Source of the DNA: Clostridia bacterium
GTDB lineage: Bacteria; Bacillota; Clostridia; Christensenellales; Borkfalkiaceae
NCBI GenBank assembly: GCA_017625565.1
Contig: JAGAKN010000013.1
Location: 1 to 64,000, forward strand
Reading direction: 5' to 3'
Length of the DNA stretch: 64,000 nt
How positions within the stretch are numbered: the stretch's first letter is position 1; the number at the start of each line of letters is the position of its first letter. Made by a program: the position numbers and the translations under genes. The notes beneath the pieces are model-generated. The model was not told the origin of the DNA. It saw only the letters and a list, made by a program, of their open reading frames with translations, and did no database searches. Positions 2,784 to 44,569 of this stretch are shown here, piece by piece.

Positions 2784-3104
2784 ATGACGGAAGAAATCAT
2801 AAAATCCATTACGAATGCGGAAGCGAAAGCTTTGGAAATAAAACGCGTTGCGCAGGAGCAATCCGCCAGGATTTTAGCGGATGCGGAAATACGAGCCGAA
2901 CAAATTTTACAAACGTCTGCAGAAACTTGCAAGGCGTATCGTGACGAGCAGTTGAAACAAGCCGTTGCGCAATCGGAAGAAGAATATTGTACTACCTTAA
3001 AAGAAGAAGAACGGAAAGCGAAAGCATACTGCGCTACCGTTTTACAAACTTCGGAAATTGTCGTAAGTGAAATCGTGGGGAGAATCATCAGTGGCGATCG
3101 TTAA
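2784..3104 (+). CDS. ntpH: V-type ATP synthase subunit H (G-like peripheral stalk)
   Basis: A 106-residue, highly charged, almost entirely helical protein rich in Ala, Glu and Lys with heptad-like spacing. This is typical of the subunit that pairs with subunit E to form the peripheral stalks holding the catalytic head to the membrane motor. It is first in the operon, with GGAGAG ahead of the start, and its end overlaps the GTG start of subunit I by 14 bases. Sequence similarity is weak in this family; the call rests on composition, length and position before subunit I. The names ntpF and atpH are used for the same role in other genomes. Confidence 0.75.
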   Translation: MTEEIIKSITNAEAKALEIKRVAQEQSARILADAEIRAEQILQTSAETCKAYRDEQLKQAVAQSEEEYCTTLKEEERKAKAYCATVLQTSEIVVSEIVGRIISGDR

Positions 3105-5082
3105 GATGCGAAAACTCAATTTAATCGCGATGTCTTACGATAGGGACGCCGTTTTGAACGCTTTGCAACGTACGGGCGCGGTAGAAATCACGACGTATGC
3201 GGACACGGAAAACACCGTTATTCCCGTATGCGATTGTGAAGAAACGCGCGCGAAGCTTTCGTCGATTGAAAACGCGTTATCGGTTTTGAGTAAAGCGGTG
3301 GAGGAGTATTCCAAAGAAAACGGGGGAAAGACGGAGCTTTTAAAGGACGGATTTTGCGTTTCGTATTCGGAGTTTGTTTCCGCGAAAGACAATACGTTAG
3401 AAATCCAGGAAATCGCCAAAAAAATTCATGCGATGGTGGATGAAAAAAATAGGCTAACGGGCAACCTTGCGGGGGTTCTTCGTCAAAAGAAAACCGCAAG
3501 CGTTTATTCTATTTTGGAAGTGCCGTTCACGGCGTTTTCGGATACGGCGCATACGCGTGGACGCTTAGGCGTAGTTCCCGTTTCTATGAAAGATAGCCTG
3601 CAAGAAGCGTTAAACGGGCAGGAACTGTGTGCGTATTCCTTATTAAACGTTGCAGACGACGAAGCGTTGTTTTTTGTTTCCGCACATAAATCCGTAGCGA
3701 CGGAAACGGACGGGATTTTGTCGGCGTTTTCCTTTACCGACGCTCCGTATCAAGGGGAGCAATCGGGGAAAGGCGTTTATCAAGGCTTGGAAGCGGAAGA
3801 AAAGCGTTTACAGCTCCGTTTAAAAGAAAATGCAAAAGCGACGTATGCGTTGCGTGAAAAAATCCGTCCGTTGAAGATTTATTGCGATTATTTGGCTTTC
3901 GTTTTGGAAAAGCAAGAAACGTCGAATAAATTGCGGGAAACGGATCAAACCTTTCTTTTGCAAGCGTACGTACCCGTTGATGCGGAAGAACGGGTAAAGA
4001 GTGCTATCCAAACGGCGACGAAAGCTTCGTACGTGGATTTCTCCGATCCGACGGAAGAAGAGACTCCGCCGACGTTGCTCCGCAACAATAAGGTCGTGGA
4101 GAATTTCGAATCAATTACGAATACCTATTCCACACCGAATTATCGGGAATTCGATCCGAACGGAATTATGGCGTTCTTTTACAGTTTGTTGATGGGCTTT
4201 ATCATCGGCGACGCTGGGTACGGCTTGGTGATGGCGCTTGCGGGCGGTTGGCTTTGGTATCGGGGACGCGTTCGTCCAACGGGCATGTCGCGGTTGGCAG
4301 GCGCGTTCGCTATCGGCGGTATTTTCGCCGTGATTTGGGGACTGCTGTTCAATTCACTTTTCGGTTTCCCCGTATTCGGTAAAGGGAATTCGCTAATGCC
4401 CGATCCGCAAAACGATCAATGGTCGCTTGCAGGAATTGACGTTCCTAGCGTGTTAATCGTGAGTATGGAAATCGGGCTCGTGCAGTTATGCACAGGCTAT
4501 ATTTGTCGCGCCGTACAGGAATGGCGTCATGGGAATGTAGCCGACGGGATTTTCGACGGCGTCCTTTGGGCGGTGTTCTCGATCGGCGTCGGATTGTTAA
4601 TCGTCGGATTTGTCGACGAAGCGAACGTACCCGTTTTGGGTACGGTGGGCGCAATTATAGTGGGGAGTACCTTGCTACTTGCGATATTGACGGCAGGTAG
4701 AAAAGAGAAATTCTTCGGCAAAATCACGAAAGGGTTCGGTACGGTTTACGGAATTATCAACTACGCGTCGGATGTTTTGAGCTATGCGCGGTTGTATGGG
4801 TTGATGCTCTCGGGCGCGGTAATCGCACAAATTATTGCACAATACAGCGGTGGGTTCATTTTAAGTGGAAACGCATTGTTGATCGTGCTCGGTGGGTTGC
4901 TACTCGTTGTGGGGAACGCATTTAACTTGGTCATGAATCTTTTGGGTGCGTATATTCACGATGCTAGATTGCAATACGTAGAATTTTACGGTCGGTTCTT
5001 CGAGGGGGAAGGGGAATTATTCTCGCCCTTGGGTTCGAAACAAAAATACATCTATTTGATGCAGGATAAACAAGGTTCTTAA
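3091..5082 (+). CDS. ntpI: V-type ATP synthase subunit I (a-subunit)
   Basis: I choose the GTG at 3091, giving 663 residues beginning VAIVKMRKLNLIAM. GGGGAG lies 8 bases upstream and the family normally begins this way; the frame is open further upstream without better support. The N-terminal half (about 1-330) is a soluble coiled-coil arm that links to the peripheral stalks. The C-terminal half has seven or so hydrophobic segments forming the ion half-channels, including the SYARLYGLMLSG segment with the essential arginine near the proteolipid ring. The EFYGRFFEGEG block near the end is typical of the family. Translation is coupled to subunit H by overlap. Confidence 0.93.
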   Translation: MAIVKMRKLNLIAMSYDRDAVLNALQRTGAVEITTYADTENTVIPVCDCEETRAKLSSIENALSVLSKAVEEYSKENGGKTELLKDGFCVSYSEFVSAKDNTLEIQEIAKKIHAMVDEKNRLTGNLAGVLRQKKTASVYSILEVPFTAFSDTAHTRGRLGVVPVSMKDSLQEALNGQELCAYSLLNVADDEALFFVSAHKSVATETDGILSAFSFTDAPYQGEQSGKGVYQGLEAEEKRLQLRLKENAKATYALREKIRPLKIYCDYLAFVLEKQETSNKLRETDQTFLLQAYVPVDAEERVKSAIQTATKASYVDFSDPTEEETPPTLLRNNKVVENFESITNTYSTPNYREFDPNGIMAFFYSLLMGFIIGDAGYGLVMALAGGWLWYRGRVRPTGMSRLAGAFAIGGIFAVIWGLLFNSLFGFPVFGKGNSLMPDPQNDQWSLAGIDVPSVLIVSMEIGLVQLCTGYICRAVQEWRHGNVADGIFDGVLWAVFSIGVGLLIVGFVDEANVPVLGTVGAIIVGSTLLLAILTAGRKEKFFGKITKGFGTVYGIINYASDVLSYARLYGLMLSGAVIAQIIAQYSGGFILSGNALLIVLGGLLLVVGNAFNLVMNLLGAYIHDARLQYVEFYGRFFEGEGELFSPLGSKQKYIYLMQDKQGS

Positions 5083-5097
5083 ACGGGAAAACCGTTT
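5081..5097 (+). other. Small hairpin at the ntpI stop, upstream of the proteolipid gene
   Basis: AAACGG-GAAAA-CCGTTT overlaps the ntpI stop codon and has no T-run. It is followed by the longest gap in the front of the operon and by an unusually strong GGAGGA ribosome binding site (5125-5130) for ntpK. It may help set the high proteolipid yield, which is an inference only. Confidence 0.35.
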
Positions 5098-5138
5098 GAA
5101 TATAGAATGAAAGAATAAAACATCGGAGGATTTTATTT

Positions 5139-5597
5139 ATGGGTTATGCAATCTCTTTGATTGGCATTGCGGCTTGCGTGTTGCTTTGTGGGGTTGGTTC
5201 TTGTATCGGTCTTTTCAAGACCAGTACGGCTGCTGCCGGAGTTTTAGGGGAAGATCCCAAAAAGTTCGGTAAAGTTATGGTTCTTGTATTGCTCCCCGCA
5301 ACGCAAGGTATTTACGGCTTTATTATCGGCATTATCGCTTCGGGCAGTATTGCGCAAACGATGACGACGGCAATGGGTTGGGCTATGGTAGGCGCAGTAC
5401 TTCCTATGGCACTTTCGGGCTTGCTTTCCGCATATTTCCAAGGGAAAGCGGCAGCGAACTGTATCTATGCAGTCGGCAAGCAAGAATCCTTGTCGGGGAA
5501 ATTGATCGTTTATCCCGGTATGATCGAATTCTACGCCATTCTCGGCTTGATCATCTCGATTATGTTGCTTGGGAACGTCGGCGGTTTGATCGCGTAA
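5139..5597 (+). CDS. ntpK: V-type ATP synthase subunit K (proteolipid, sodium-type ligands)
   Basis: A 152-residue protein with four membrane helices, formed as two tandem hairpins, that builds the rotating membrane ring. The ion-binding residues are visible: L52, T55 and Q56 in LLPATQG, Q101 in FQGKAAA, and E130 in the last helix (PGMIEFYAILG). These have the same relative spacing as the sodium ligands L61, T64, Q65, Q110 and E139 described for Enterococcus hirae NtpK, so sodium coupling is predicted. A strong GGAGGA site precedes the start. The first hairpin has no acidic residue, as expected for a duplicated 16-kDa proteolipid with one carboxylate. Confidence 0.93.
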   Translation: MGYAISLIGIAACVLLCGVGSCIGLFKTSTAAAGVLGEDPKKFGKVMVLVLLPATQGIYGFIIGIIASGSIAQTMTTAMGWAMVGAVLPMALSGLLSAYFQGKAAANCIYAVGKQESLSGKLIVYPGMIEFYAILGLIISIMLLGNVGGLIA

Positions 5598-5614
5598 GTA
5601 AGCGGTAGAACGAT

Positions 5615-6184
5615 ATGAGTATGCAACTCGTAGTAGACAGAATACTCCTTGACGCCAAGGCGGAAGCTACGGCGATTGTAGAAGAAGCGGAAAACAAGGC
5701 GAAAGCGTTGCTTTCCACGGTTTCCGCGCGCGCTGAAAACGAGAAAAACGCGGTGGAAGCGGAAATGCAAGCAAAGAAAGAGAGTGTTCTTGAAAAGAAA
5801 CGTGCAACGGCGCGGTTGGATAGCGCGAAGATTTTACTCGGCGAGAAACGGAAAACGTTGGATGCGATTTACCGCTCTGCGCTTTCCCGTTTACAAACGC
5901 TTGAGAAGGAAGATTGTTTGCGTTTAGCGACGCGTTTGTTGGAAACGTACGCGGAGAACGGCGACGAAATTTATTTTGCCGAGAATTTTGTTTACGCAAA
6001 AGAAGTGTCGTTGTTGCCGATTGTGCAAACAAAATCGTTAAAGGTTGCCAAGGAGCGTTTACCCTTGGACGGCGGAATGCGATTAAAGGGCGAAAAGTCG
6101 GATAAAGATTTGTCTTACGGGGCGTTGCTTTCGGCGGATCGGGACGAAAATCAAGCGACGTTGGCGAAAAAACTCTTTAAATAA
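5615..6184 (+). CDS. ntpE: V-type ATP synthase subunit E (peripheral stalk)
   Basis: 189 residues. The first half is a long charged helix (about 10-100, rich in Ala, Glu and Lys) that would coil with subunit H. The second half is a compact globular domain that contacts the catalytic head. Length and order (K-E-C) match bacterial V-ATPase operons. The start is the ATG at 5615, with only a weak upstream ribosome binding site. The gene follows ntpK by 17 bases and precedes ntpC by 13 bases. Confidence 0.85.
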   Translation: MSMQLVVDRILLDAKAEATAIVEEAENKAKALLSTVSARAENEKNAVEAEMQAKKESVLEKKRATARLDSAKILLGEKRKTLDAIYRSALSRLQTLEKEDCLRLATRLLETYAENGDEIYFAENFVYAKEVSLLPIVQTKSLKVAKERLPLDGGMRLKGEKSDKDLSYGALLSADRDENQATLAKKLFK

Positions 6185-6197
6185 CGGAGAACGCAAA

Positions 6198-7178
6198 ATG
6201 GCATCGTTTTTAGATACTGCGTATACAAACGGCGTAATCGCCGTGAGAGAAAAACATCTTTTGAAAGATAAAATTTCCCGTTTCTGTGAACTGAGTGCGG
6301 AAGAAGCGTTTCGCGCGCTTTTGGAGAGCGGTTTCGGGGGTGGCGCGGAAACTGCGGTCAGCGTATACGATTACGAAAAACTCATTTTGCAAGAAGAAGA
6401 GAAGTTGGACGCGTTCATACGCGAATACGCTCCGTCGGAAACGGAGAGAGCGTACCTGCTTTCTCCGAAAGATTTCCACAATGCCAAAGCATTGGTCAAA
6501 GCGAAATATTTAAACGTGGATGCAGGGCGTATGTTGGCAGACGACGGCTTGATTCCCGTTGCGGAATTGACGGCTTGTATCGATGCAAACGACTATACCG
6601 ACTTAGCGAAAAAAAACGCGTATTTGGCGGACGCTTGCATAAACGCGACGGAAAGTTTACAAGAAACGCCGTCGGGGGCGAAAGTGGGCGAGATTTTCGA
6701 AAAGGCGTTGTATTCGTATTTGTTTGCCCTTTCTAAACGTAAGGCGGTACTCAAAAAACTTTTACAGGCAAAAATCGATATGACGAATATTTTAACGGCG
6801 TTCCGTTCTGTAAACGAGCAGACGGCAAAAGACAAATATTTGCCGTTTGGGACGTTGAAAGAAACGGAGCTTGCCCGTTTGTTCGACGATGGGGCAAACG
6901 CGGAAAAAGCTTTTGGGGAAACTCCTTATGCCGAATTCGTCAAGCTTTGCTTGCACGCAAAGGAACAGGGGTTGCCTATGTCGCAGGCGGAAAAACTCCG
7001 CGACGGGTACGACGTGGCATTTTTTGCGAAACGCAAATACGACTTACAAAAAACCGAGCCGTTCTTGTATTACGTGTACCGCCGAAAGACGGAACAAGCG
7101 AACGTGCGGATCGTTTTCGTATGTCTTTTGGCAGGGCAAAGCGAACAAGAAATAAAGGGACGACTTCGCGTATGGTGA
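6198..7178 (+). CDS. ntpC: V-type ATP synthase subunit C (central stalk socket)
   Basis: 326 residues, within the usual 320-350 for the family. It is a soluble, mostly helical protein with no membrane segments, and the FHNAKALVKAKY block near 95 is typical. Subunit C forms a funnel on top of the proteolipid ring and connects it to the D-F rotor shaft. A GGAG site precedes the ATG at 6198. It lies in the conserved position between E and F. Confidence 0.88.
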   Translation: MASFLDTAYTNGVIAVREKHLLKDKISRFCELSAEEAFRALLESGFGGGAETAVSVYDYEKLILQEEEKLDAFIREYAPSETERAYLLSPKDFHNAKALVKAKYLNVDAGRMLADDGLIPVAELTACIDANDYTDLAKKNAYLADACINATESLQETPSGAKVGEIFEKALYSYLFALSKRKAVLKKLLQAKIDMTNILTAFRSVNEQTAKDKYLPFGTLKETELARLFDDGANAEKAFGETPYAEFVKLCLHAKEQGLPMSQAEKLRDGYDVAFFAKRKYDLQKTEPFLYYVYRRKTEQANVRIVFVCLLAGQSEQEIKGRLRVW

Positions 7179-7191
7179 CGGGAGAAAACGT

Positions 7192-7509
7192 ATGACGGGA
7201 AAAATGGCGATCGTCGGCAACGGCGACGGAATATTAGTGTTTAAAGCGACAGGGGTGGATACCTTCCCTGCGGAAAACGAGAAAAAAGCGCGGGAAATTC
7301 TTCGAAAAATAGCCAAGGAATATCAAATTATATTCCTTACGGAAGATTTGGCGAAACAGTTGACGGAGTTTTTAAAACGGTTTGACGAAGAACCGTACCC
7401 CGTCGTCGTAAGCATTCCCACGGCGGAAAGCGGTGGATACGGCATGCAGGTGTTAAAGACGGCGATGGAACGCGCGCTCGGGGTGGATATTTTATTTAAC
7501 AAAGACTAA
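7192..7509 (+). CDS. ntpF: V-type ATP synthase subunit F (rotor)
   Basis: A 105-residue small alpha/beta protein beginning [19 protein letters not shown], with the IIFLTEDLA strand-helix and a PVVVSIPT strand, all typical of subunit F. With D it makes the central rotor shaft and can regulate ATP hydrolysis. It is preceded by GGGAG and followed by 11 bases and then subunit A. In some nomenclatures this gene is called ntpG. Confidence 0.9.
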
Positions 7510-7520
7510 AGGAGAAAAAG

Positions 7521-9287
7521 ATGGCAGGCAAGACAGTAAAAATTTCCGGACCTTTGATTATTGCCGAAGGCATGGCGGATGCAAAGCTCTACGACGTCGT
7601 ACGGGTTTCCGAGAAAGGATTAATCGGGGAAATTATCGAACTTCGCGGAGATAAGGCGTCTATTCAGGTATATGAAGAAACGTCGGGGCTTGGCCCGAAC
7701 GAAGACGTGTATTCGATGGGCGAACCCCTTTCGGCGGAGCTCGCGCCCGGGTTGATCACGGGGATTTTCGACGGAATACAACGTCCGCTTACCGCATTGT
7801 ATTTTCAATACGGCGACCGCATTTCGCGTGGGGTGTCCGTAAACAATTTGGATCGCGAGAAAAAATGGTTGTTTATTCCACGCGTTCAAGTCGGGGATAC
7901 GGTAGAAGAAGGGGATATACTCGGAATTGTTAACGAAACGGAAATCGTCGAACACCGTATACTCGTCCCCCAAGGCATGGGCGGAAAAGTCTTGTCGATT
8001 TCGGAAGGCGAATATACGATTGAAGAACCGATTGCGCAGATCCAAACGCAAGACGGCAAAAAACCGGTGGCAATGTTGCGGAAATGGCCGGTAAGAAAGG
8101 GTAGACCGTACAAAGAAAAAATGTCCCCGAACAAACCGATGGTGACGGGGCAACGGGTAATCGATACGCTGTTCCCGATCGCAAAGGGCGGCGTTGCGGC
8201 AGTTCCCGGACCTTTCGGCAGCGGAAAAACAGTCGTGCAACACCAGCTTGCAAAATGGGCGGACGCGGATATTATCGTTTACGTCGGTTGTGGGGAACGT
8301 GGCAACGAAATGACGGACGTTTTGAACGAATTCCCCGAGCTGAAAGATCCTACCACGGGCGAGCCGTTGATGAAGAGAACGGTACTCATTGCAAACACTT
8401 CGGATATGCCCGTTGCGGCGCGGGAAGCGTCTATCTATACGGGGATTACCATTGCGGAATATTTCCGGGATATGGGGTACAGCGTTGCGATTATGGCGGA
8501 TTCCACTTCCCGTTGGGCAGAAGCGTTGCGGGAAATGAGCGGTCGTTTGGAAGAAATGCCCGGCGACGAAGGCTATCCTGCCTATCTCGCATCTCGGCTT
8601 GCGGAATTCTACGAGCGCGCAGGGATTGTCAAATTGCTCGGCTCGGAAGAACGCATCGGTTCGATCACGGCGATCGGCGCGGTTTCTCCCCCGGGTGGGG
8701 ATTTGAGCGAACCCGTGTCCCAAGCAACTTTGCGCATTGTCAAAGTATTCTGGGGCTTGAGTGCGTCGCTTGCTTACAAACGGCACTTCCCGGCAATCGA
8801 TTGGTTGATCAGTTATTCGTTGTACGCCGATAAAATGAAAGAATGGTACGACGAAACGGAAGGCGAAGAATTCTTTCAATACCGTCAGTTTATGATGACG
8901 ATTTTGCAAGAAGAATCGGCGCTCGACGAAATCGTGCGCTTGGTCGGTATGGACGCGTTGTCGTCGAAAGACCGCTTGACGATGGAAACGGCGAAGATCG
9001 TCCGCGAGGACTACTTGCACCAAAACGCTTTCCACGAAGTCGATACGTTCACGTCTATGCATAAGCAGTTCTTGATGTTGAAACTCATTTACGAATTCAA
9101 CCGTTTGGCGTTGATCGCGATCGAAAGCTATGCGGATTTGGACGATATTCTTGCTTGTTCGTGCAAGGAAATGATCGGGCGTGCGAAGTATATTCCCGAG
9201 GAAAACATTTCGGAATTTGACGGAATTTTCAAGACTATGCAAGCGGAGTTGAAAGCGCTTGCGGAAGGGGGAAACGAAGATGTTTAA
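7521..9287 (+). CDS. ntpA: V-type ATP synthase subunit A (catalytic)
   Basis: 588 residues, full length. The Walker A is GPFGSGKT at 230-237 and the catalytic region GERGNEMT lies about 20-30 residues later. The bulge domain (about 115-190) that separates V-type A subunits from F-type beta is present. This subunit binds and turns over ATP in the A3B3 head in the cytoplasm. A GGAG site precedes the ATG at 7521. Its last codons overlap the start of subunit B by 8 bases (ATGTTTAA), coupling production of the two head subunits. Confidence 0.97.
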
Positions 9288-10671
9288 AGAATATAAAACC
9301 ATTCGCGAAGTCGTTGGTCCTTTGATGGTCGTCGAAGGCGTCGAAGGGGTTAAATACAACGAACTTGTGGATATCGTCAACTCCAACGGGGAAATCCGTA
9401 TGGGGAAGGTTTTGGAAATCAACCGCGACAAAGCCGTCGTGCAGTTGTTCGAAAACTCCCAAGGATTGCAAATTTCGGGCGCGAGAGCTCGGTTTTTAGG
9501 GCACAGTCAAGAGTTGGCGTTGTCGGAAGATATGCTTGGTAGAGTATTCGACGGCATGGGCAATCCTAGGGATGGTGGAGCGCCGATTATTCCCGAAAAG
9601 AAAATGGATATCAACGGCGAACCGATTAACCCTGCCGCGCGCGATTATCCCAACGAATTTATTCAAACGGGTATTTCGGCGATCGATGGGTTGAACACGC
9701 TCGTCCGTGGACAAAAATTGCCGGTATTTTCCATGAGCGGTTTACCGCACGCAGAACTCGCCGCACAAATCGCTAGACAAGCCAAAGTAAGAAGTGGGGA
9801 TTGCAAATTCGCGGTGGTATTCGCTGCAATCGGGATTACCTTTGAAGAAGCGCAGTATTTTGTAGACGATTTTAAAAAGACGGGCGCGATCGAGCGTACG
9901 GTACTTTTTACCAACCTAGCAAACGACCCTGCTGTAGAACGTATTTCTACCCCGCGTATGGCGTTGACTTGCGCGGAGTACTTGGCGTTCGAAAAAGGTA
10001 TGCACGTGCTTGTTATTATGACGGACATCACCAACTATGCGGAAGCGCTCCGTGAAGTTTCGGCGGCGCGTAGAGAAGTCCCCGGTAGACGTGGATATCC
10101 CGGGTATTTATACACCGATCTTGCGAGTTTGTACGAACGCGCAGGGCGTATTCGTGGAAAAGAAGGCTCGATTACGCAAATTCCTATTTTGACCATGCCC
10201 GAAGACGATAAAACGCACCCGATCCCCGACTTAACGGGATATATCACGGAAGGACAAATTATTCTTTCAAGAGATTTGTATAAAAAAGGTATCAATCCGC
10301 CCGTCGACGTGTTGCCGTCGTTGTCGCGTTTGAAAGACAAAGGTACGGGGAAAGGTAAAACGCGGGAAGATCATGCGGATACGATGAACCAGCTTTTCGC
10401 GGCGTACGCGCGCGGTAAAGAATCCAAAGAACTTTCGGCGATCTTAGGCGAAGCGGCACTGTCCGACGTCGATAAACTCTACGCAAAATTTGCGGAAGCG
10501 TTCGAAAAGGAATACGTCAATCAAGGGTTCGATACGGATAGAACGATTGAAGAAACGCTCGATCTCGGTTGGAAACTCATGAAAATCTTGCCTAAGAGCG
10601 AGTTAAAGCGTATCCGCAAAGAATATATCGAGAAATATTTTGCAGACGGAGAAGCGCATGGCAAGGCTTAA
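9280..10671 (+). CDS. ntpB: V-type ATP synthase subunit B (non-catalytic)
   Basis: 463 residues starting [15 protein letters not shown] at the ATG at 9280, which has GGGGGA upstream; an in-frame ATG at 9259 would lengthen the overlap without improving the family match. The canonical Walker A is replaced by a degenerate loop ([14 protein letters not shown]), as expected for the non-catalytic subunit. [20 protein letters not shown] near 350 is typical. It alternates with A in the hexameric head. It overlaps ntpA by 8 bases and ntpD by 14 bases. Confidence 0.96.
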
Positions 10672-18130: not shown

Positions 18131-18781
18131 TTATTTTAACTTGCTAATTTTTGAAGTATTTGTGATAACTACAAGTTGCATATCCTTCGCTAATTTTACT
18201 GTGGGGTCAATATTGATTTCTAAATTATTTACTTGCCGAATTGCAACAACGTTGATGGAATATTTTTTACGCAAATTTAATTCAATAAGCGTTTTGCCTA
18301 CCCATTCGGGCTTAACTTCAAGTTCTATTAAAGATACGTCGTTGGATAATTCTATAACGTCGACAAACCCAGAACTTAAAAGGTTTTTTGCAAGACGTAT
18401 TCCTGATTCGCATTCAGGAAAAACTACTTTATCCGCTCCTACCTTACTTAAAATCTTTTTATGCATCTCATTCGCACATTTTGCAATTACTACATTTACG
18501 CCAACCTCTTTACACAACATTACCGCCATAACGCTTGCTTCCAAATTATTTGCCATAGCAATAATGACAACGTCCATATTGGAAATACCAAGCTGTTTTA
18601 TGACTTCTAAATCGGTTACGTCTGCACATTTACAAAACGGAATATCGGCGATAGCGGAATTTACAATGGCTTCATCTGAATCAACGGCTAACACCTCAGC
18701 GCCATTGCTGACAAGCTCTTTTGCTACGGCTAGCCCATATCGTCCAAGACCAAATACGGCGTAAGATTTATTAATACTCAT
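18131..18781 (-). CDS. ktrA: Potassium uptake regulatory subunit KtrA/TrkA-type
   Basis: 216 residues. The N-terminal RCK domain has the nucleotide-binding motif GLGRYG (12-17) and an acidic end of strand 2 (VDSDE); the C-terminal RCK subdomain occupies about 140-216. Such proteins form a cytoplasmic octameric ring that binds ATP or NADH and gates the potassium channel subunit. AGGAG precedes the ATG. It follows ktrB by 20 bases in the same orientation, so the two form one operon. Base use is AT-rich, unlike the V-ATPase genes. Confidence 0.9.
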   Translation of the reverse strand: MSINKSYAVFGLGRYGLAVAKELVSNGAEVLAVDSDEAIVNSAIADIPFCKCADVTDLEVIKQLGISNMDVVIIAMANNLEASVMAVMLCKEVGVNVVIAKCANEMHKKILSKVGADKVVFPECESGIRLAKNLLSSGFVDVIELSNDVSLIELEVKPEWVGKTLIELNLRKKYSINVVAIRQVNNLEINIDPTVKLAKDMQLVVITNTSKISKLK

Positions 18782-18801
18782 AATATACTCCTTTTTTTTA
18801 G

Positions 18802-20160
18802 TTAACCTACGCTTATTTCCTCGGTAGGGTTTTTGATAATATTTTCGGTTTCTTTATTTGAATTAAATGCAATTGCCAAAGAAATAGGGCCTATTCTTCC
18901 TAAATACATTGTAGAGATAATGACAAGTTTTCCTGAAAAGCCCAAATAAGCCGTAAGATTTCTTGACAAGCCGACCGTTGCCGTTGCGCTTACGGTTTCA
19001 TAAATTATATCAAGTGCCGGGGCATTTGTGACAGCAGCAAGCAAGACGGTCGCTATAAACACAATCGAAAAGGACATACTTGTAACGGCAACTGCTTTCT
19101 TTGTGATTTGTCTTGATAAATTCCTATTGAATAACGATACTTCGTTTTTGTTTTTTATCGCAGAATATGCAGTAGCGAATAACACAACAATTGTAACCGT
19201 TTTGATGCCGCCTGCTGTTCCAACGGGAGAACCGCCGATAAACATTAAAAAAACACAAAGAATAGCGGAGGCATTTGTCAAATTTTCTTGCGGTATTGTC
19301 GCGAACCCTGCCGTTCGTGTCGTTATGGATTGAAAAAGTGATACTTGAATTTTATCAAAGAGTGAATAGCTTTCTATAGTTAGAGGATTGCTATACTCCA
19401 ATATAAAAATTGCAACAGCACCACCAAAAATAAGAATCAGCGTTGCTGACAATGCAATTTTACTATGCAACGTCAACCGTTTCAAGCATTTTATTTTTTC
19501 TTTTTTGAAAAATTTAAATACGCGTATTATATCCCACCAAACAATATAACCTATACCGCCTAGAATAATTAAAAGGCTTGTAATAGTATTTATTAAAGGA
19601 TTTAGCGCATAACTACACAGGCTGTTTTCAGCGATTATATCAATCCCTGCGTTACAAAAGGCGGAAACTGAATTGAATATGGAAAGCCAAATTCCGCGCG
19701 CGCCATAGTCGGGGATAAATACGAACATATAAAGCAACGCTCCAATCCCTTCAATAATAAGCGTGCCAATAATAACTTTTTTAACAAAGACTGTAAGGCC
19801 CGATAAAGAAGTCAGATTGAATGCATCACTAATCAATCTACTATCTTTCAATCCTATTTTACGGTGTAACGCTATCGTTAAACCTGTGATTACGGTGATA
19901 ATGCCGAGTCCGCCGATTTGTATTAAAAGCAAAATCACTATTTGTCCAAAAACACTCCAAGTTGTCACCGTCGGTAACGTAACCAATCCTGTTACGCAAG
20001 TTGCAGTGGTTGAAGTAAATAATGCGTCTATATACGGAATAGCTTTTCCATTTTTTGAACTGATAGGCAAGGCGAGCAATAGACTGCCTATCAATATCAC
20101 AAATAGAAAACTTAAAATAATGACTTGTGTTGTTGAAAGTTTTAATTTGTATTTTTTCAT
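18802..20160 (-). CDS. ktrB: Potassium uptake channel subunit KtrB/TrkH-type
   Basis: 452 residues from the ATG at 20160 (MKKYKLKLSTTQV); the frame is open upstream, but that part overlaps the promoter. Four pore repeats are visible with their filter glycines: TATCVTGL, CNAGID, TRTAGF and TATVGL. This is the SKT-superfamily organisation of K+ translocating subunits that work with KtrA and are often Na+-linked. No large extra domain is present, which favours KtrB over TrkH. The promoter lies at 20197-20225. Confidence 0.9.
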   Translation of the reverse strand: MKKYKLKLSTTQVIILSFLFVILIGSLLLALPISSKNGKAIPYIDALFTSTTATCVTGLVTLPTVTTWSVFGQIVILLLIQIGGLGIITVITGLTIALHRKIGLKDSRLISDAFNLTSLSGLTVFVKKVIIGTLIIEGIGALLYMFVFIPDYGARGIWLSIFNSVSAFCNAGIDIIAENSLCSYALNPLINTITSLLIILGGIGYIVWWDIIRVFKFFKKEKIKCLKRLTLHSKIALSATLILIFGGAVAIFILEYSNPLTIESYSLFDKIQVSLFQSITTRTAGFATIPQENLTNASAILCVFLMFIGGSPVGTAGGIKTVTIVVLFATAYSAIKNKNEVSLFNRNLSRQITKKAVAVTSMSFSIVFIATVLLAAVTNAPALDIIYETVSATATVGLSRNLTAYLGFSGKLVIISTMYLGRIGPISLAIAFNSNKETENIIKNPTEEISVG

Positions 20161-20196
20161 AATCAAGTTTCTTCGAAAATGAGATTTAATATTTTT

Positions 20197-20225
20197 ATTA
20201 TAACACAATTCAAGATATATTTCAA
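20197..20225 (-). promoter_or_regulatory. Promoter of ktrB-ktrA
   Basis: Minus strand: TTGAAA (20225-20220), a 17-bp spacer and TATAAT (20202-20197), about 37 bases before the ktrB start. Confidence 0.7.
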
Positions 20226-20519: not shown

Positions 20520-21404
20520 TTATAAAAACGTTTCTTGGGTTTTAGCATTCGCTTTGATGCGTTTTTGATATTCCTTAGGCGGTACGCCCGCTTGCTTTTT
20601 AAAGAATTTGCAAAAATAGGGTACGCAGTCGAAATTCAATTCGTCTGCGATTTGCGCAATGGATTTTTTCGATTGCTCCAAAAGCCGTTTTGCCGAGTGC
20701 ATTTTCTTTTCTGTAATGTATTCGATCACCGTTTTCCCTGTCGCGAGCTTAAATTCCTTGCACAAAGTCGAACGATTTGTACGGAACAAAAACGCCAATT
20801 CGTCCAAAGTAATCCGTTCCAAATAATTATTGTCTACGTATTTGATGATTTCGTTGATTTGGAAATCGACGTCGTCGTTTTCGTCGGCGTTTTCAAAGAA
20901 CTCGTGCTTGCGGATTAACCCGATTAAAAAAGACTCTAGCAAAGAACGGAGCATTTGCTCGCTACCGAACATTTGCTTTTTTTTCTTTTCCATGTCATAC
21001 ACGGGTACGTTATAGGGGGGCGCGAATACGTTGCGACCTTCTCTAACGATTTCCGCCAAGTGTTTAATCTCCGTTTCGTCTAAACGCACGGGTTTTTGCG
21101 CGAATGCATTCAAGCGCGCGGACAAACATTCAAAACCGATAATCACGACGGAAGTTTCGCTTGCGTTCGGGCAAGTTAAAGCGTGCACGCTGTTTGCACC
21201 GTGAATAAGCATCTCGTATTTGGATAACGTACCGTTATACCCATCGGAGCGCACGAAAATTTCCCCGCTATTTACGAAAATTAACTCGCAAAAGGGGTGT
21301 TTATCAGCTTTCGTGCCGTAATCTTGTGGAAACTCGAAAAAGTGCACGTTTGCAATTTTAGGAACGAGAAGTACGTTCTCAATCGGTTGCAGTTTAAAAT
21401 TCAT
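20520..21404 (-). CDS. AraC-family transcriptional regulator
   Basis: 294 residues from the ATG at 21404. The N-terminal half is a cupin-like sensor (about 20-110, FFEFPQDYGTKADKHPFCELIFV). The C-terminus holds two helix-turn-helix units (about 200-290: LDELAFLFRTNRSTLCKEFK, and IAQIADELNFDCVPYFCKFFKK). It reads divergently from the creatinase-like operon and probably controls it in response to a small ligand. An in-frame start at 21443 would lie inside the promoter. The chosen ATG falls six bases after TATAAT, so the transcript looks leaderless. Confidence 0.85.
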   Translation of the reverse strand: MNFKLQPIENVLLVPKIANVHFFEFPQDYGTKADKHPFCELIFVNSGEIFVRSDGYNGTLSKYEMLIHGANSVHALTCPNASETSVVIIGFECLSARLNAFAQKPVRLDETEIKHLAEIVREGRNVFAPPYNVPVYDMEKKKKQMFGSEQMLRSLLESFLIGLIRKHEFFENADENDDVDFQINEIIKYVDNNYLERITLDELAFLFRTNRSTLCKEFKLATGKTVIEYITEKKMHSAKRLLEQSKKSIAQIADELNFDCVPYFCKFFKKQAGVPPKEYQKRIKANAKTQETFL

Positions 21405-21410
21405 ACTTCT

Positions 21411-21439
21411 ATTATATACGTTCCCTATTCCTTTGTCAA
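21411..21439 (-). promoter_or_regulatory. Promoter of the AraC regulator
   Basis: Minus strand: TTGACA (21439-21434), a 17-bp spacer and TATAAT (21416-21411). Only six bases separate the -10 box from the ATG. Confidence 0.75.
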
Positions 21440-21499
21440 GCAAAAAGAAAATATCATCAAAAAATTTACGATAAGATAATTTTTATTGATGATTTTCTA

Positions 21500-21528
21500 A
21501 TGACAAAAAGAGAAATATATAGTATAAT
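21500..21528 (+). promoter_or_regulatory. Promoter of the creatinase-like operon
   Basis: ATGACA (21500-21505), a 17-bp spacer and TATAAT (21523-21528). The weak -35 box fits activation by the divergent AraC protein, whose own -35 box is about 60 bp away. Confidence 0.6.
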
Positions 21529-21580
21529 AAAATTAGTCGGTAGCCCGACGAAAATATATGAACAGTAAGGAGAAGTTATT

Positions 21581-22756
21581 ATGCAAAGAGTATGTATTCC
21601 TGATTGGGAGTATCAAGAAAGAATTCAAAAGGCAGCAAAATTGGTGCAAGAAAAAGGTCTTGACGCAATGCTCGTCGTATCGACGGAAAGCGACTATGCA
21701 AACGCAAGATATTTCTCGGGTTTCTGGCCCTTGTTTGAAAGAGCGGGCGTATTGATCGGTGCAAGCGGAAAGGCGGTATTACTCGTAGGCCCGGAATCGG
21801 CGATTTTCGCGAAAGATTTTGGTAAGATTGACAAAGTTATGGTTTTGAAGGAATTCCGTGAATCGGCAGACCCTGCATATCCCGAACTCGTTCCCGATAC
21901 CTTTAAAATGGCGTTCGATTACGTTGGCGCAACGGGCGAAAACCTTAAAATCGGTTTGGGTAGCTACGTAGAATGCACGTTGCCCATTATGGAAGGCTTG
22001 AAAGATACTTTCCCGAAGGCGGAAATTTCCATTTGTAGCGACATTATGGTAGCGCTCCGCTCGATTAAGAGTGAAAACGAACTCGCTTGTATCAGAGAAG
22101 GGTTCAGAATCGTAGAACTCGCAACAGACGAAGTGGTTAAGGCGTTGAAACCGGGTGTCACCGAATTGCAAATGGTTGGTGTTGCGCAAAGAGTTATTTA
22201 TGAAAACGGTGCGGAATACGAAGGGCTTCCTATGTACGTATTCAGCGAATCTTCTACGCGTCACGCAATCAGCCGTTCGACCTATAAAACGATTGGTAAG
22301 AACGATATCGTTCAACTCAATCTTTCGGCGAAAATTGACGGGTATTCTCCTGCAATCGGCTTGCCCGTATTTATGGGCAAAGCGGAAGGCGAAAAGAAAG
22401 AACTTGTAGATTTCTGCTTGAAGATGCACAACTGGACGACGGAAAATTTGAAAGCTGGCATGAAAGCGGACGTTGTTCCCAAGAAATTCTTGCAAATGTT
22501 CAAGGACGCTGGTTATGAAAAGAACTACGTATACGGGCCTTGTCACGGTACGGGTATGATCGAAGTAGAAGCGCCTTGGATGGAAACTTCTTCCGATTAT
22601 ATTTTGAAGAAGAATATGACGTTCCAAGTCGATACGTTCATCTCCGGCTCGACCTTTGGTTGCCGTTGGGAAAAGGGTATTGCTATCAAAGAAAACGGCG
22701 TAGAATCGTACACCGATTATCTTGAAAAGCACGGCTTAATCGAATTAGGCTTCTAA
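21581..22756 (+). CDS. Creatinase-like M24-fold protein lacking metal ligands
   Basis: 391 residues: an N-terminal creatinase-type domain (about 8-160) and a C-terminal pita-bread domain (about 168-391). In M24 aminopeptidases two aspartates, one histidine and two glutamates bind metals. Here the first aspartate is N247 (NLSAKIDGYS), the second is replaced near 258, and the EPG glutamate is missing. H322 (CHGTG) and E364 remain. Such metal-less members include true creatinases, so it may hydrolyse a C-N bond without metal or act only as a binding protein. AAGGAG precedes the ATG. It heads a three-gene operon with ASRT and creatininase-family partners. Confidence 0.8.
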   Translation: MQRVCIPDWEYQERIQKAAKLVQEKGLDAMLVVSTESDYANARYFSGFWPLFERAGVLIGASGKAVLLVGPESAIFAKDFGKIDKVMVLKEFRESADPAYPELVPDTFKMAFDYVGATGENLKIGLGSYVECTLPIMEGLKDTFPKAEISICSDIMVALRSIKSENELACIREGFRIVELATDEVVKALKPGVTELQMVGVAQRVIYENGAEYEGLPMYVFSESSTRHAISRSTYKTIGKNDIVQLNLSAKIDGYSPAIGLPVFMGKAEGEKKELVDFCLKMHNWTTENLKAGMKADVVPKKFLQMFKDAGYEKNYVYGPCHGTGMIEVEAPWMETSSDYILKKNMTFQVDTFISGSTFGCRWEKGIAIKENGVESYTDYLEKHGLIELGF

Positions 22757-22772
22757 TTGCATAAAACGTTGC

Positions 22773-22799
22773 GCGGGGCAGGGGAATACCCCGCCCCGC
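22773..22799 (+). other. GC-rich intercistronic hairpin followed by an A-run
   Basis: Stem GCGGGGC-A-GGGG/CCCC-GCCCCGC with loop AATA, followed by AAAAAATAA and then the AAGGAG site of the next gene. It lacks a T-run, so it may stabilise or separate mRNA segments rather than terminate. Confidence 0.5.
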
Positions 22800-22823
22800 A
22801 AAAAATAATAAGGAGAAAAGAAA

Positions 22824-23186
22824 ATGGCAGTAGTAGGAAAGAAATCTTGGGTAATTCCCGATTGCGAACTTCCCCCTGAAGGCGAAGGCGTATTAAAGGG
22901 ACACGAAAGCGTCGTGATCGTAAACGACAGCAATAAAAAAGCCGTCATTAAAGTGGCTTTGTATTTCGTAGAAGACGAAGCGTATGAAAACATTACTTGG
23001 GAAGTAGAACCCAAGAAAGTAAAATGTTTCCGTATGAACAACGTAGAACATATGTGTGGATACGTCGTTCCTTTGGAAACGCAATACGCTATGAAATTGG
23101 AAAGCAGTCAACCCATCGTCGTTCAATACGGCAGATTGGACAACCGCCAAACCAACCTTGCGTACTACACTACGATGGCGTACTAA
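22824..23186 (+). CDS. ASRT-family small beta-sandwich protein
   Basis: 120 residues with the markers of the family of the Anabaena sensory rhodopsin transducer: GKKSWVIPD at the start, GHESVVIVND, YFVEDEAYENITWEVE, and a close with PIVVQYGRLDNRQTNLAYYT. The family is predicted to form small beta-sandwich domains that bind small molecules, possibly sugars, and it is found far outside rhodopsin systems. No signal peptide or membrane segment is seen. AAGGAG precedes the ATG. It sits between a creatinase-like gene and a creatininase-family gene, which suggests it binds or presents their substrate. Confidence 0.85.
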   Translation: MAVVGKKSWVIPDCELPPEGEGVLKGHESVVIVNDSNKKAVIKVALYFVEDEAYENITWEVEPKKVKCFRMNNVEHMCGYVVPLETQYAMKLESSQPIVVQYGRLDNRQTNLAYYTTMAY

Positions 23187-23204
23187 TAAAGGAGATAAAC
23201 GGTT

Positions 23205-23939
23205 ATGATTCTCGATCATTCTTTTCCGCGTGAAACGGATTATGTAAAAGAAAAGAACTTACCTTTGGTAATCGTCGGTGGTACGGTAGAATACCACGGC
23301 CCGCATTGTTCTTACGGTTGTGATACGCTCGTTGCTGAAGGCTTGGTAAAAAAACTCGCTGAAGAAAAAGAAATCATGCTCGCCCCGACCATTTCTTACA
23401 GCCCGTCTAGCTACGCGGTTGGCGGTAAGGAAACGGGTACGGTGCATATTCCGGAAAAAGCTTTTGAAGAATACGTGTATTACGTTTTCAAGAGTATGCT
23501 TTATTCAGGGTTTAGAAATATTTACGTCGTCATTCATCATCAATTCGAACAAGAATGCAATAAGCCTATGACGCTCTGCTACAAATTAGCATCTCAACGC
23601 GCCATTATGGAATACTTGCAAGAAACGAAAGGCGAAGGTTGGTGGGGTAGCGAGAACTACGCGAATTATTATGAAGAATTAGAAGGCTCTTCCAATCCTT
23701 TCGAATGGATCAAAGTAATCCCTACGATGAGCACGGCGGTACAAAATGCTACGGGTTATGATCACGCAGGCAAATACGAAAGCTCGATTTTGATGGCTTT
23801 GTACCCCGATTGCGTACAACTCGACCGCATTGACGATATCAAGCACTGGTTTACTGCCAGCGCACGCGAAGCAAATAAAGAGCTCGGCGACGAAATGGTT
23901 CGTCAATCGCTCGCATATTTAAGAGAAGCAATCAAATAA
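23205..23939 (+). CDS. Creatininase-family amidohydrolase
   Basis: 244 residues. The family metal-binding pattern is visible as E29, H31, H34 and D40 in VEYHGPHCSYGCD, with a later His pair (IHHQ, 111-112) and the closing glutamate in HAGKYESS. These enzymes use two metals to open cyclic amides such as creatinine or related lactams. The usual NGHGGN loop is replaced by HHQFEQE, so the substrate may differ from creatinine. AAAGGAG precedes the ATG. It is the last gene of the operon and has a terminator at 23955-23990. Confidence 0.8.
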   Translation: MILDHSFPRETDYVKEKNLPLVIVGGTVEYHGPHCSYGCDTLVAEGLVKKLAEEKEIMLAPTISYSPSSYAVGGKETGTVHIPEKAFEEYVYYVFKSMLYSGFRNIYVVIHHQFEQECNKPMTLCYKLASQRAIMEYLQETKGEGWWGSENYANYYEELEGSSNPFEWIKVIPTMSTAVQNATGYDHAGKYESSILMALYPDCVQLDRIDDIKHWFTASAREANKELGDEMVRQSLAYLREAIK

Positions 23940-23954
23940 ACGAAATTTACGGAT

Positions 23955-23990
23955 AACGCCTTGAAAGTTTTTGCTTTCGGGGCGTTTTTC
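23955..23990 (+). terminator. Terminator of the creatinase/creatininase operon
   Basis: Stem AACGCC-GAAAG/CTTTC-GGGGCGTT with a T-rich loop, ending in TTTTTC. Confidence 0.75.
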
Positions 23991-24079
23991 TTGCGTTTTA
24001 TCGGAAATTGTGGTAAAATCAAAGAAAAAATGCGTAAAGAGTCCGTCGCTGGTACATATTGACGGAAAGGGGAATGCGT

Positions 24080-26366: not shown

Positions 26367-26640
26367 AAAAAACTGCGCGATCCTTTGTTGCCGAGATTTA
26401 CCGAAGCGGAAACGCCGCAGGTGACTACTGCAAAGCTACCTTATGGCACACGCAAACATCCGCTTAGAGCTGCTACATTCCTGTCCTGACACGGTTCACG
26501 GCATTACGTTGCATAAGACCTTGCGATCAACGTTCCTTACGGCGCGCAAACCTTCCATAAACGTCGTCGAGAAAGGCATTCGGCTCTGATATAGCGGATT
26601 TCAGATACAGGGTGCCGCTAGCTCCCCACCTACGCGCAGC
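26367..26640 (-). ncRNA. ffs: Signal recognition particle RNA, large (Alu-containing) type
   Basis: About 274 nt on the minus strand. The S-domain core GTGTCAGGACAGGAATGTAGCAGC is at 26492-26470 and is the conserved Ffh-binding loop region. The 5' part (GGTGGGGAGCTAGCGGCACCCTGTA, then GCCGAATGCC) matches the Alu-domain start of Bacillus scRNA. The ends pair (GCTGCGCG with CGCGCAGT) and the RNA finishes in a T6 run. It joins Ffh to target membrane proteins. The promoter is at 26647-26675. Confidence 0.9.
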
Positions 26641-44216: not shown

Positions 44217-44569
44217 GATTTGAGTTTGTTATACGGTCGCGGGGCTTTGTAAAGAGCCATGAGGAAAGTCCGAGCAACATAGGACAGGGTGCCTGATAAC
44301 GTCAGGTGAAGGTGACTTTAAGGAAAGTGCAACAGAAATAAACCGCAAAGTTTCGGCTTTGTAAGGATGGAAAGGCGAGGTAAGAGCTCACCGATACCAC
44401 GGCAACGTGGTATGCCATGTAAACCCCACCCGTTGCAAGATTGGGCTTCCGCCACGTAGGGCTGTCCGTCCGGCGGAACGCCGTGAATATCGCTTGAGCT
44501 TGTCGGCGACGGCAAGCCTAGATAAATGACCGTACACGACAGAACTCGGCTTACAGACAAACTCAAATC
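44217..44569 (+). ncRNA. rnpB: RNase P RNA (type A)
   Basis: About 353 nt. Conserved blocks in order: GAGGAAAGTCCGAGC, ACAGAAATAAACCGC, GTAAACCCC, AGATAAATGACCG and ACAGAACTCGGCTTACAGAC. The ends pair (GATTTGAGTTTGT with ACAAACTCAAATC) to form helix P1. This is the ancestral A-type layout rather than the Bacillus B-type. The RNA is the catalytic part of RNase P, which trims tRNA 5' ends. Apparent open frames inside it are artefacts. Confidence 0.95.

Follow-up and report, generated by a model that had tools for sequence, protein, structure and literature searches.

Co-inheritance of an M24-fold protein and a creatininase-family protein in a putatively AraC-controlled operon of gut Clostridia

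In Pseudomonas, creatininase and creatinase act consecutively, and the same two protein families are found together in the 64,000-nucleotide stretch analyzed here (the window; contig JAGAKN010000013.1 of the Clostridia bacterium assembly GCA_017625565.1). Its operon encodes a 391-amino-acid M24-fold (creatinase/prolidase-like) protein (21581..22756, + strand), a 120-amino-acid beta-sandwich protein of the ASRT (Anabaena sensory rhodopsin transducer) family (22824..23186, +), and a 244-amino-acid creatininase-family protein of PF02633, referred to as CRN (23205..23939, +). A gene for a 294-amino-acid AraC/XylS-family regulator (20520..21404, -) is transcribed divergently. The M24 protein has both bridging metal Asp residues substituted (N247, A258), and CRN has an HHQFE loop along with its core metal ligands, as described below. 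An earlier note, made from the sequence alone, described the three genes as one operon with its own promoter and terminator, divergent from an AraC gene. The coordinates agree with this description, all four proteins score above the curated Pfam cut-offs, and the operon is framed by a promoter motif at 21500..21528 (+) and a 14-pair intrinsic terminator at 23955..23986 (+). We favor, with moderate confidence, the view that this is an AraC-activated catabolic module in which CRN and the M24 protein form an obligate hydrolase pair for one small sugar-related compound, with ASRT binding the ligand.

Recurrent linkage, together with co-occurrence at the genome level, rejects the possibility that these genes are chance neighbors. 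The earlier note named a lack of recurrent linkage in other genomes as refuting its reading, but the linkage does recur: a scan of GTDB contigs seeded by the ASRT protein alone yielded 48 loci (L numbers denote fetched loci), and all 48 contained the M24 gene, with CRN alongside in 35. Bins of ruminant or other herbivore guts supplied most of these loci; Petroclostridium sp. X23 and a Merdimonas bin were also represented, the Petroclostridium homologs being from a complete genome. A second scan, seeded by the M24 protein alone at class and order level, gave 22 fetched loci of the same M24 clade, designated clade A. Within 3 kb and on the same strand, ASRT was present in 18 of the 22, CRN in 17, and either of them in 21, the lone exception (L081) being truncated by the contig end. 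Gene order varies, from CRN-ASRT-M24 in Petroclostridium (L048) to ASRT-M24-kinases-CRN in L049, and the set is still clustered; thus, the association predates any single frozen arrangement.

Across 391 genomes of the class, clade A M24 proteins were detected in 30 and this CRN subfamily in 28, with both in 27 (Fisher p of 3e-37 when genomes are counted, 2e-24 when genera are counted). Counting linked and unlinked copies alike, three genomes had the M24 protein without CRN, and a single one, G622, had CRN without a clade A protein; G622 holds a protein of the sister clade M24-B. At the genus level, 20 genera were shared, out of 23 with the M24 protein and 21 with CRN. Ten genomes carried an M24-ASRT locus lacking CRN, and in eight of these CRN was encoded elsewhere, seven times as the L049 type (38-44% identity to the window CRN) and once as the window type (85%). 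The pair is therefore retained even when unlinked, and this strong co-occurrence, linked or not, identifies M24 and CRN as co-inherited. ASRT, found in 26 of the 30 clade A genomes and also in 45 others of the 391, is a shared accessory and not exclusive to the clade A genomes. In a plasmid collection, no close relative of M24, CRN, or ASRT was found, all matches falling below 60% identity. Identities to the window genes form a mosaic (M24 95% and CRN 75% in L005; M24 78% and CRN 87% in L006; M24 95% and AraC 42% in L013), and the M24 gene seems to have been swapped within the operon independently of its neighbors.

The M24 protein scores 85.1 bits against Peptidase_M24 and 44.4 bits against Creatinase_N, and has the pita-bread (creatinase/prolidase) fold including the Creatinase_N domain. 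Its AlphaFold model (pLDDT 82.7) matches 1kp0 with a TM score of 0.81 and fits prolidases and creatinases about equally, whereas its sequence is closer to prolidases (2zsg, 1e-21) than to creatinase (1chm, 6e-8). The ectoine hydrolase equivalog TIGR02993 reached 42 bits against a cut-off of 613. M24 metallopeptidases such as prolidase and PepP use the five-ligand set D, D, H, E, E, which is incomplete here. As claimed from the window protein alone, position 247 is Asn and position 258 is not Asp: compared with metal-dependent references, all 64 clade A proteins have Asn at the former and Ala or Ser at the latter. H322, D351, and E364 are present in all 64 as well, with D351 replacing a ligand Glu. 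The description of this protein as metal-less thus holds in part: the substitutions exclude a dinuclear site as far as sequence can tell, but the three remaining residues would be compatible with a single bound metal. Together with E328 and E330, they make up the invariant polar residues. H228, also invariant in clade A, is a candidate counterpart of the catalytic His232 of creatinase, but the loop alignment is ambiguous and pLDDT is below 50 there.

In a maximum-likelihood tree, clade A (100/100) is sister to clade B (99/90), followed by clade C (97/95), and is separate from PepP, EutD, and the remaining references. Clustering with metal-dependent prolidases, which the earlier note named as a refuting outcome, is not seen. 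The protein belongs neither to the creatinases nor to the prolidases. Its dN/dS is 0.01-0.04 between close relatives and rises to 0.13 at 77% identity; a decaying pseudogene is rejected by these values, and the M24 protein is a working protein under strong purifying selection.

CRN scores 97.6 bits against PF02633 (cut-off 31.3), and its structural model matches creatininases only. Pseudomonas creatininase residues E34, H36, D45, H120, H178, and E183 align with CRN E29, H31, D40, H112, H187, and E192, and these six residues, comprising the metal site and the conserved H187 and E192, are all invariant in the subfamily alignment. The unusual loop singled out in the earlier note is likewise a fixed property, being invariant as HHQ-x-E in 12 diverse homologs; creatininase Glu122 is out of register there, with F114/E115 in this stretch. 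Since the core metal-ligand residues are retained, the odd loop is no sign of inactivity, and CRN is probably an active metallohydrolase with an altered pocket. Among NCBIfam models, the true creatininase TIGR04448 matched best (62.9 bits, cut-off 235), IolN (NF041098) reached 50.7 bits (1.3e-13, cut-off 245), and the creatininase-family peptidase MftE matched at 1e-12, leaving CRN below every equivalog cut-off. IolN, MftE, and riboflavin formamidase (PMC9478397) have the PF02633 fold and core metal ligands in common with CRN and reflect the wide chemistry of this family, but CRN differs from all three in its HHQxE loop, which stands in place of GH-Y/G-E/G-N.

The third operon protein matches PF07100 at 106.6 bits (cut-off 25). 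The literature (PMC2739507) predicts ASRT to be an intracellular sugar sensor with the His and Cys of its SHExxCxxN motif lining a cleft. In the subfamily of the window protein, this His is retained in 49/49 sequences and the Asn is retained, whereas the ligand-contacting Cys of described ASRT proteins is replaced by Val or Ile in 49/49, a change in the cleft that hints at a different ligand. The sugar operons of the ASRT/ASRAH families described by De Souza, Iyer and Aravind (2009) resemble the present system in having stand-alone ASRT genes beside sugar enzymes and ABC transporters; M24 or creatininase partners are not mentioned in the portion of that work that was examined. Our literature search found no paper linking creatininase with ASRT, M24, or inositol.

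On which compound might these proteins act? The observation that no transporter is encoded with the operon is true of the window, but relatives place the trio by sugar ABC transporters. In free-living relatives, it keeps company with RbsABC-type transporters, LacI, and kinases of the FGGY and PfkB types (L048, L049, and L063), as well as with an M20 deacylase. Among gut relatives, the trio is followed in 14 loci by an aldose-epimerase-like gene of the DUF4432 family, always on the same strand, and in 12 loci by a family of about 712-726 amino acids (for example, L019:4618-6759, L017:8507-10684, and L078:2370-4505); no Pfam match and no PDB match were obtained for this family. Further neighbors include uronate isomerase and Gfo/Idh enzymes. 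These neighbors are more in keeping with sugar-related compounds than with simple cyclic amides. Of the original proposal of a pathway or sensor for a cyclic amide or an amidino or sugar compound, the joint function is strongly supported by linkage and co-occurrence, but the neighborhood favors its sugar-related over its cyclic-amide variant.

In the sister M24 clades, the metal sites are damaged throughout, and each clade is accompanied by a metallohydrolase of another family: clade B by a PTE-like protein (7/10), clade C by M20 (5/6), and clade P by MlrC/M81 (9/11), the last with ASRT in 10 of its 11 loci. We take these partners as the best mechanistic clue: a metallohydrolase and an M24 protein would each carry out one step on a single small molecule. 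Creatininase with creatinase, and EutE with EutD, conform to this scheme. Creatinase itself is an M24-fold enzyme that does not use metal. In the ectoine bimodule of EutD/DoeA and EutE, an M24 protein devoid of the metal ligands is teamed with a partner hydrolase, neither being dispensable (PMC8739950). The likeness to this bimodule has limits: all five ligand positions are replaced in EutD (E/P/Y/M/T), whereas the window protein retains H, D, and E, and its partner is of the creatininase family. Several sister loci deserve mention in their own right. Clade B proteins (L082 9305-10465 and L083 of Petroclostridium, and L098-L106) have Gln/Ser at metal positions, and their genes adjoin those of the PTE-like hydrolase and of a family of about 260 amino acids without Pfam match; in Petroclostridium, the clade B gene has an L-ribulokinase as its neighbor and is separated by 11 kb from that of clade A. 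Clade P loci (L017 and L068-L076) possess their own ASRT, an M81/MlrC protein, and a different AraC, and in L017 the clade P operon directly adjoins the clade A operon.

The regulator contains a C-terminal two-helix-turn-helix domain (HTH_18, 67.7 bits) and a weak N-terminal cupin match. Its most probable start is ATG 21404 rather than TTG 21443, because homologs align from there and a perfect araC promoter (TTGACA-17-TATAAT, 12/12; 21411..21439, -) overlaps the longer start. The gene is divergent from that of M24 in most relatives (36-89% identity), as in the window, where the gap from this ATG to the M24 start is 176 bp; the divergent regulator was part of the earlier description. All 36 AraC/M24 intergenic regions contain ATTTACgAT-N12-ATTgACgATT, with half-sites 21 bp apart, running into a -35-like AAAGACA and a TATAAT. 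In the window, the predicted AraC-binding site is the direct repeat ATTTACGAT / ATTGATGAT with 21-bp spacing (21464..21505, +), which reaches into the -35 of the operon promoter (ATGACA-17-TATAAT). A scoring matrix built from 32 further regions, with the window and its closest AraC relatives excluded, gave this site 36 bits, compared with a maximum of -2 in 500 shuffles, and it was the only site above 10 bits in the 64 kb. A search of the host genome for a second operator, such as would mark a transporter regulon, returned only the operon's own site at up to three mismatches. With AraC identity as low as 36% across loci, the footprint reflects more than recent common ancestry, and this conservation of the predicted site supports AraC control of the operon. 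The -10 element of araC ends 6 nt before the ATG, and a distance of about 6 nt is also seen in L002, L005, L008, L028, L029, and L032. This short distance suggests that the araC mRNA may be leaderless.

In the mechanism that we propose, AraC would recognize the tandem direct repeat abutting the -35 and activate the operon in response to the ligand. CRN and the M24 protein, which given their near-constant co-occurrence probably both degrade one sugar-related compound, would act on it in sequence or as a complex. CRN might open a ring or cleave an amide or lactone with its two-metal site, and the M24 protein might break an adjacent C-N bond of the amidine type with no need of a dinuclear metal, in the manner of creatinase and EutD. 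The cytoplasmic ligand of ASRT would be this compound or one of its breakdown products, which ASRT would sense or carry for the pair.

Several points weigh against this proposal. Metagenome bins make up most of the genomes, and the gene calls were simple open-frame calls. Three clade A genomes are without CRN, some loci are without ASRT, and the co-occurrence statistic allows for kinship only by genus counting. The M24 model falls below pLDDT 50 at 224-227 and 323-337, stretches lining the pocket, and the catalytic His of creatinase can be aligned to this protein only with uncertainty. Finally, no RbsB-type binding protein was found in the host genome, so uptake there is unaccounted for.

The loss of metal ligands might also mean that the M24 protein is a pseudoenzyme that binds substrate or stabilizes or regulates CRN, leaving the chemistry to CRN alone. 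Replacement of the two bridging Asp residues and of the residues at the catalytic His positions of prolidase, the almost 1:1 tracking of CRN, and the existence of non-peptidase M24 members (PMC3888471) speak for such a role. However, the five invariant polar residues and the very low dN/dS are suggestive of an active site, both creatinase and EutD are catalytically active although their M24 metal sites are altered, and the pairing of equally damaged M24 proteins with four different hydrolases fits a common chemistry, so that we consider a non-catalytic partner somewhat unlikely. Similar doubt, slightly stronger, attaches to an IolN-like CRN, that is, a 3-dehydro-scyllo-inosose hydrolase type of C-C or lactone hydrolase for a cyclitol or sugar acid, with the M24 protein acting on a later carbonyl and no C-N bond involved. 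The sugar kinases, aldose epimerase, uronate isomerase, and Gfo/Idh enzymes near the trio in relatives would suit it, as would the NF041098 match and a distant M24 relative in a galactarate/TRAP cluster; but that match stays far under its cut-off, and the galactarate-cluster protein retains both Asp residues and falls outside the clade.

Degradation of creatinine itself, by CRN to creatine and by the M24 protein to sarcosine and urea, appears very improbable, even though the aerobic creatinine pathway uses the same two families and TIGR04448 is the best NCBIfam match of CRN. The TIGR04448 score falls far short of its cut-off, and no urease above cut-off is present in the host genome, which together make creatinine an unlikely substrate; the greater similarity of the M24 protein to prolidases than to creatinase, and the sugar transporters and kinases in relatives, argue in the same direction. 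No match to GrdB was obtained in the host genome either, in a search that had no positive control. Compared with creatinine catabolism, neither protein reaches an equivalog-level match, the host genome offers no urease route, and the locus has an extra ASRT, an AraC, and, in relatives, sugar-type neighbors. An ordinary metal-dependent Xaa-Pro peptidase, in an operon degrading cyclic or proline-containing peptides, would agree with the closeness of the M24 protein to archaeal and Thermotoga prolidases in sequence and fold and with the MftE match of CRN. This idea is largely refuted by the absence of two of five metal ligands in 64/64 proteins and by the separation of the clade from PepP references (100/97), and it has very little left to recommend it.

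The remaining features of the locus concern its transcripts and surroundings. An intergenic RNA hairpin (22773..22799, +; -27.3 kcal/mol, z -4.4) separates the M24 and ASRT genes, and hairpins of unrelated sequence occupy the same position in L002, L003, L016, L019, and L024, loci with a long gap. The hairpin may protect the M24 message or lower read-through, so that more M24 than ASRT and CRN is made. In L010, two near-identical repeats of about 200 bp, rich in GAATT/TGAATTG palindromes, are inserted in both the M24-ASRT and the ASRT-CRN gaps. A thioredoxin-reductase-like gene at 24059 was rejected as an operon member because the terminator stands between. The region is flanked by V-type ATPase subunit genes (3067-10671) and a TrkA/TrkH-like Trk-type potassium uptake pair (18131-20208), and the window also encodes a large bacterial SRP RNA (26373-26639) and RNase P RNA (44221-44569).

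Under the favored reading, an obligate CRN-M24 pair, the operon would represent a concrete and testable catabolic module in uncultured Clostridia of ruminant and other herbivore guts, with a specific regulator and a mapped predicted site that make its inducer screenable by reporter. It would also give a defined functional context to the poorly understood intracellular ASRT proteins. As pure speculation, substrates of the creatininase version could be sugar-derived imidazolones or glycated guanidines, combining a creatinine-like ring with a polyol chain. We further entertain, tentatively, the possibility that M24 proteins without the bridging Asp constitute a large unrecognized class of metal-poor hydrolases that function only when teamed with a distinct metallohydrolase. 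If so, each clade would have a partner of its own, whether creatininase, PTE-like, M20, or M81, and ASRT would often be the shared substrate carrier or sensor. Creatininase-creatinase and EutD-EutE would then exemplify a general two-step principle, as its two cases known so far. The suggested rule, that an M24 protein with a broken metal site travels with a separate metallohydrolase, could place many proteins currently annotated as Xaa-Pro peptidase.

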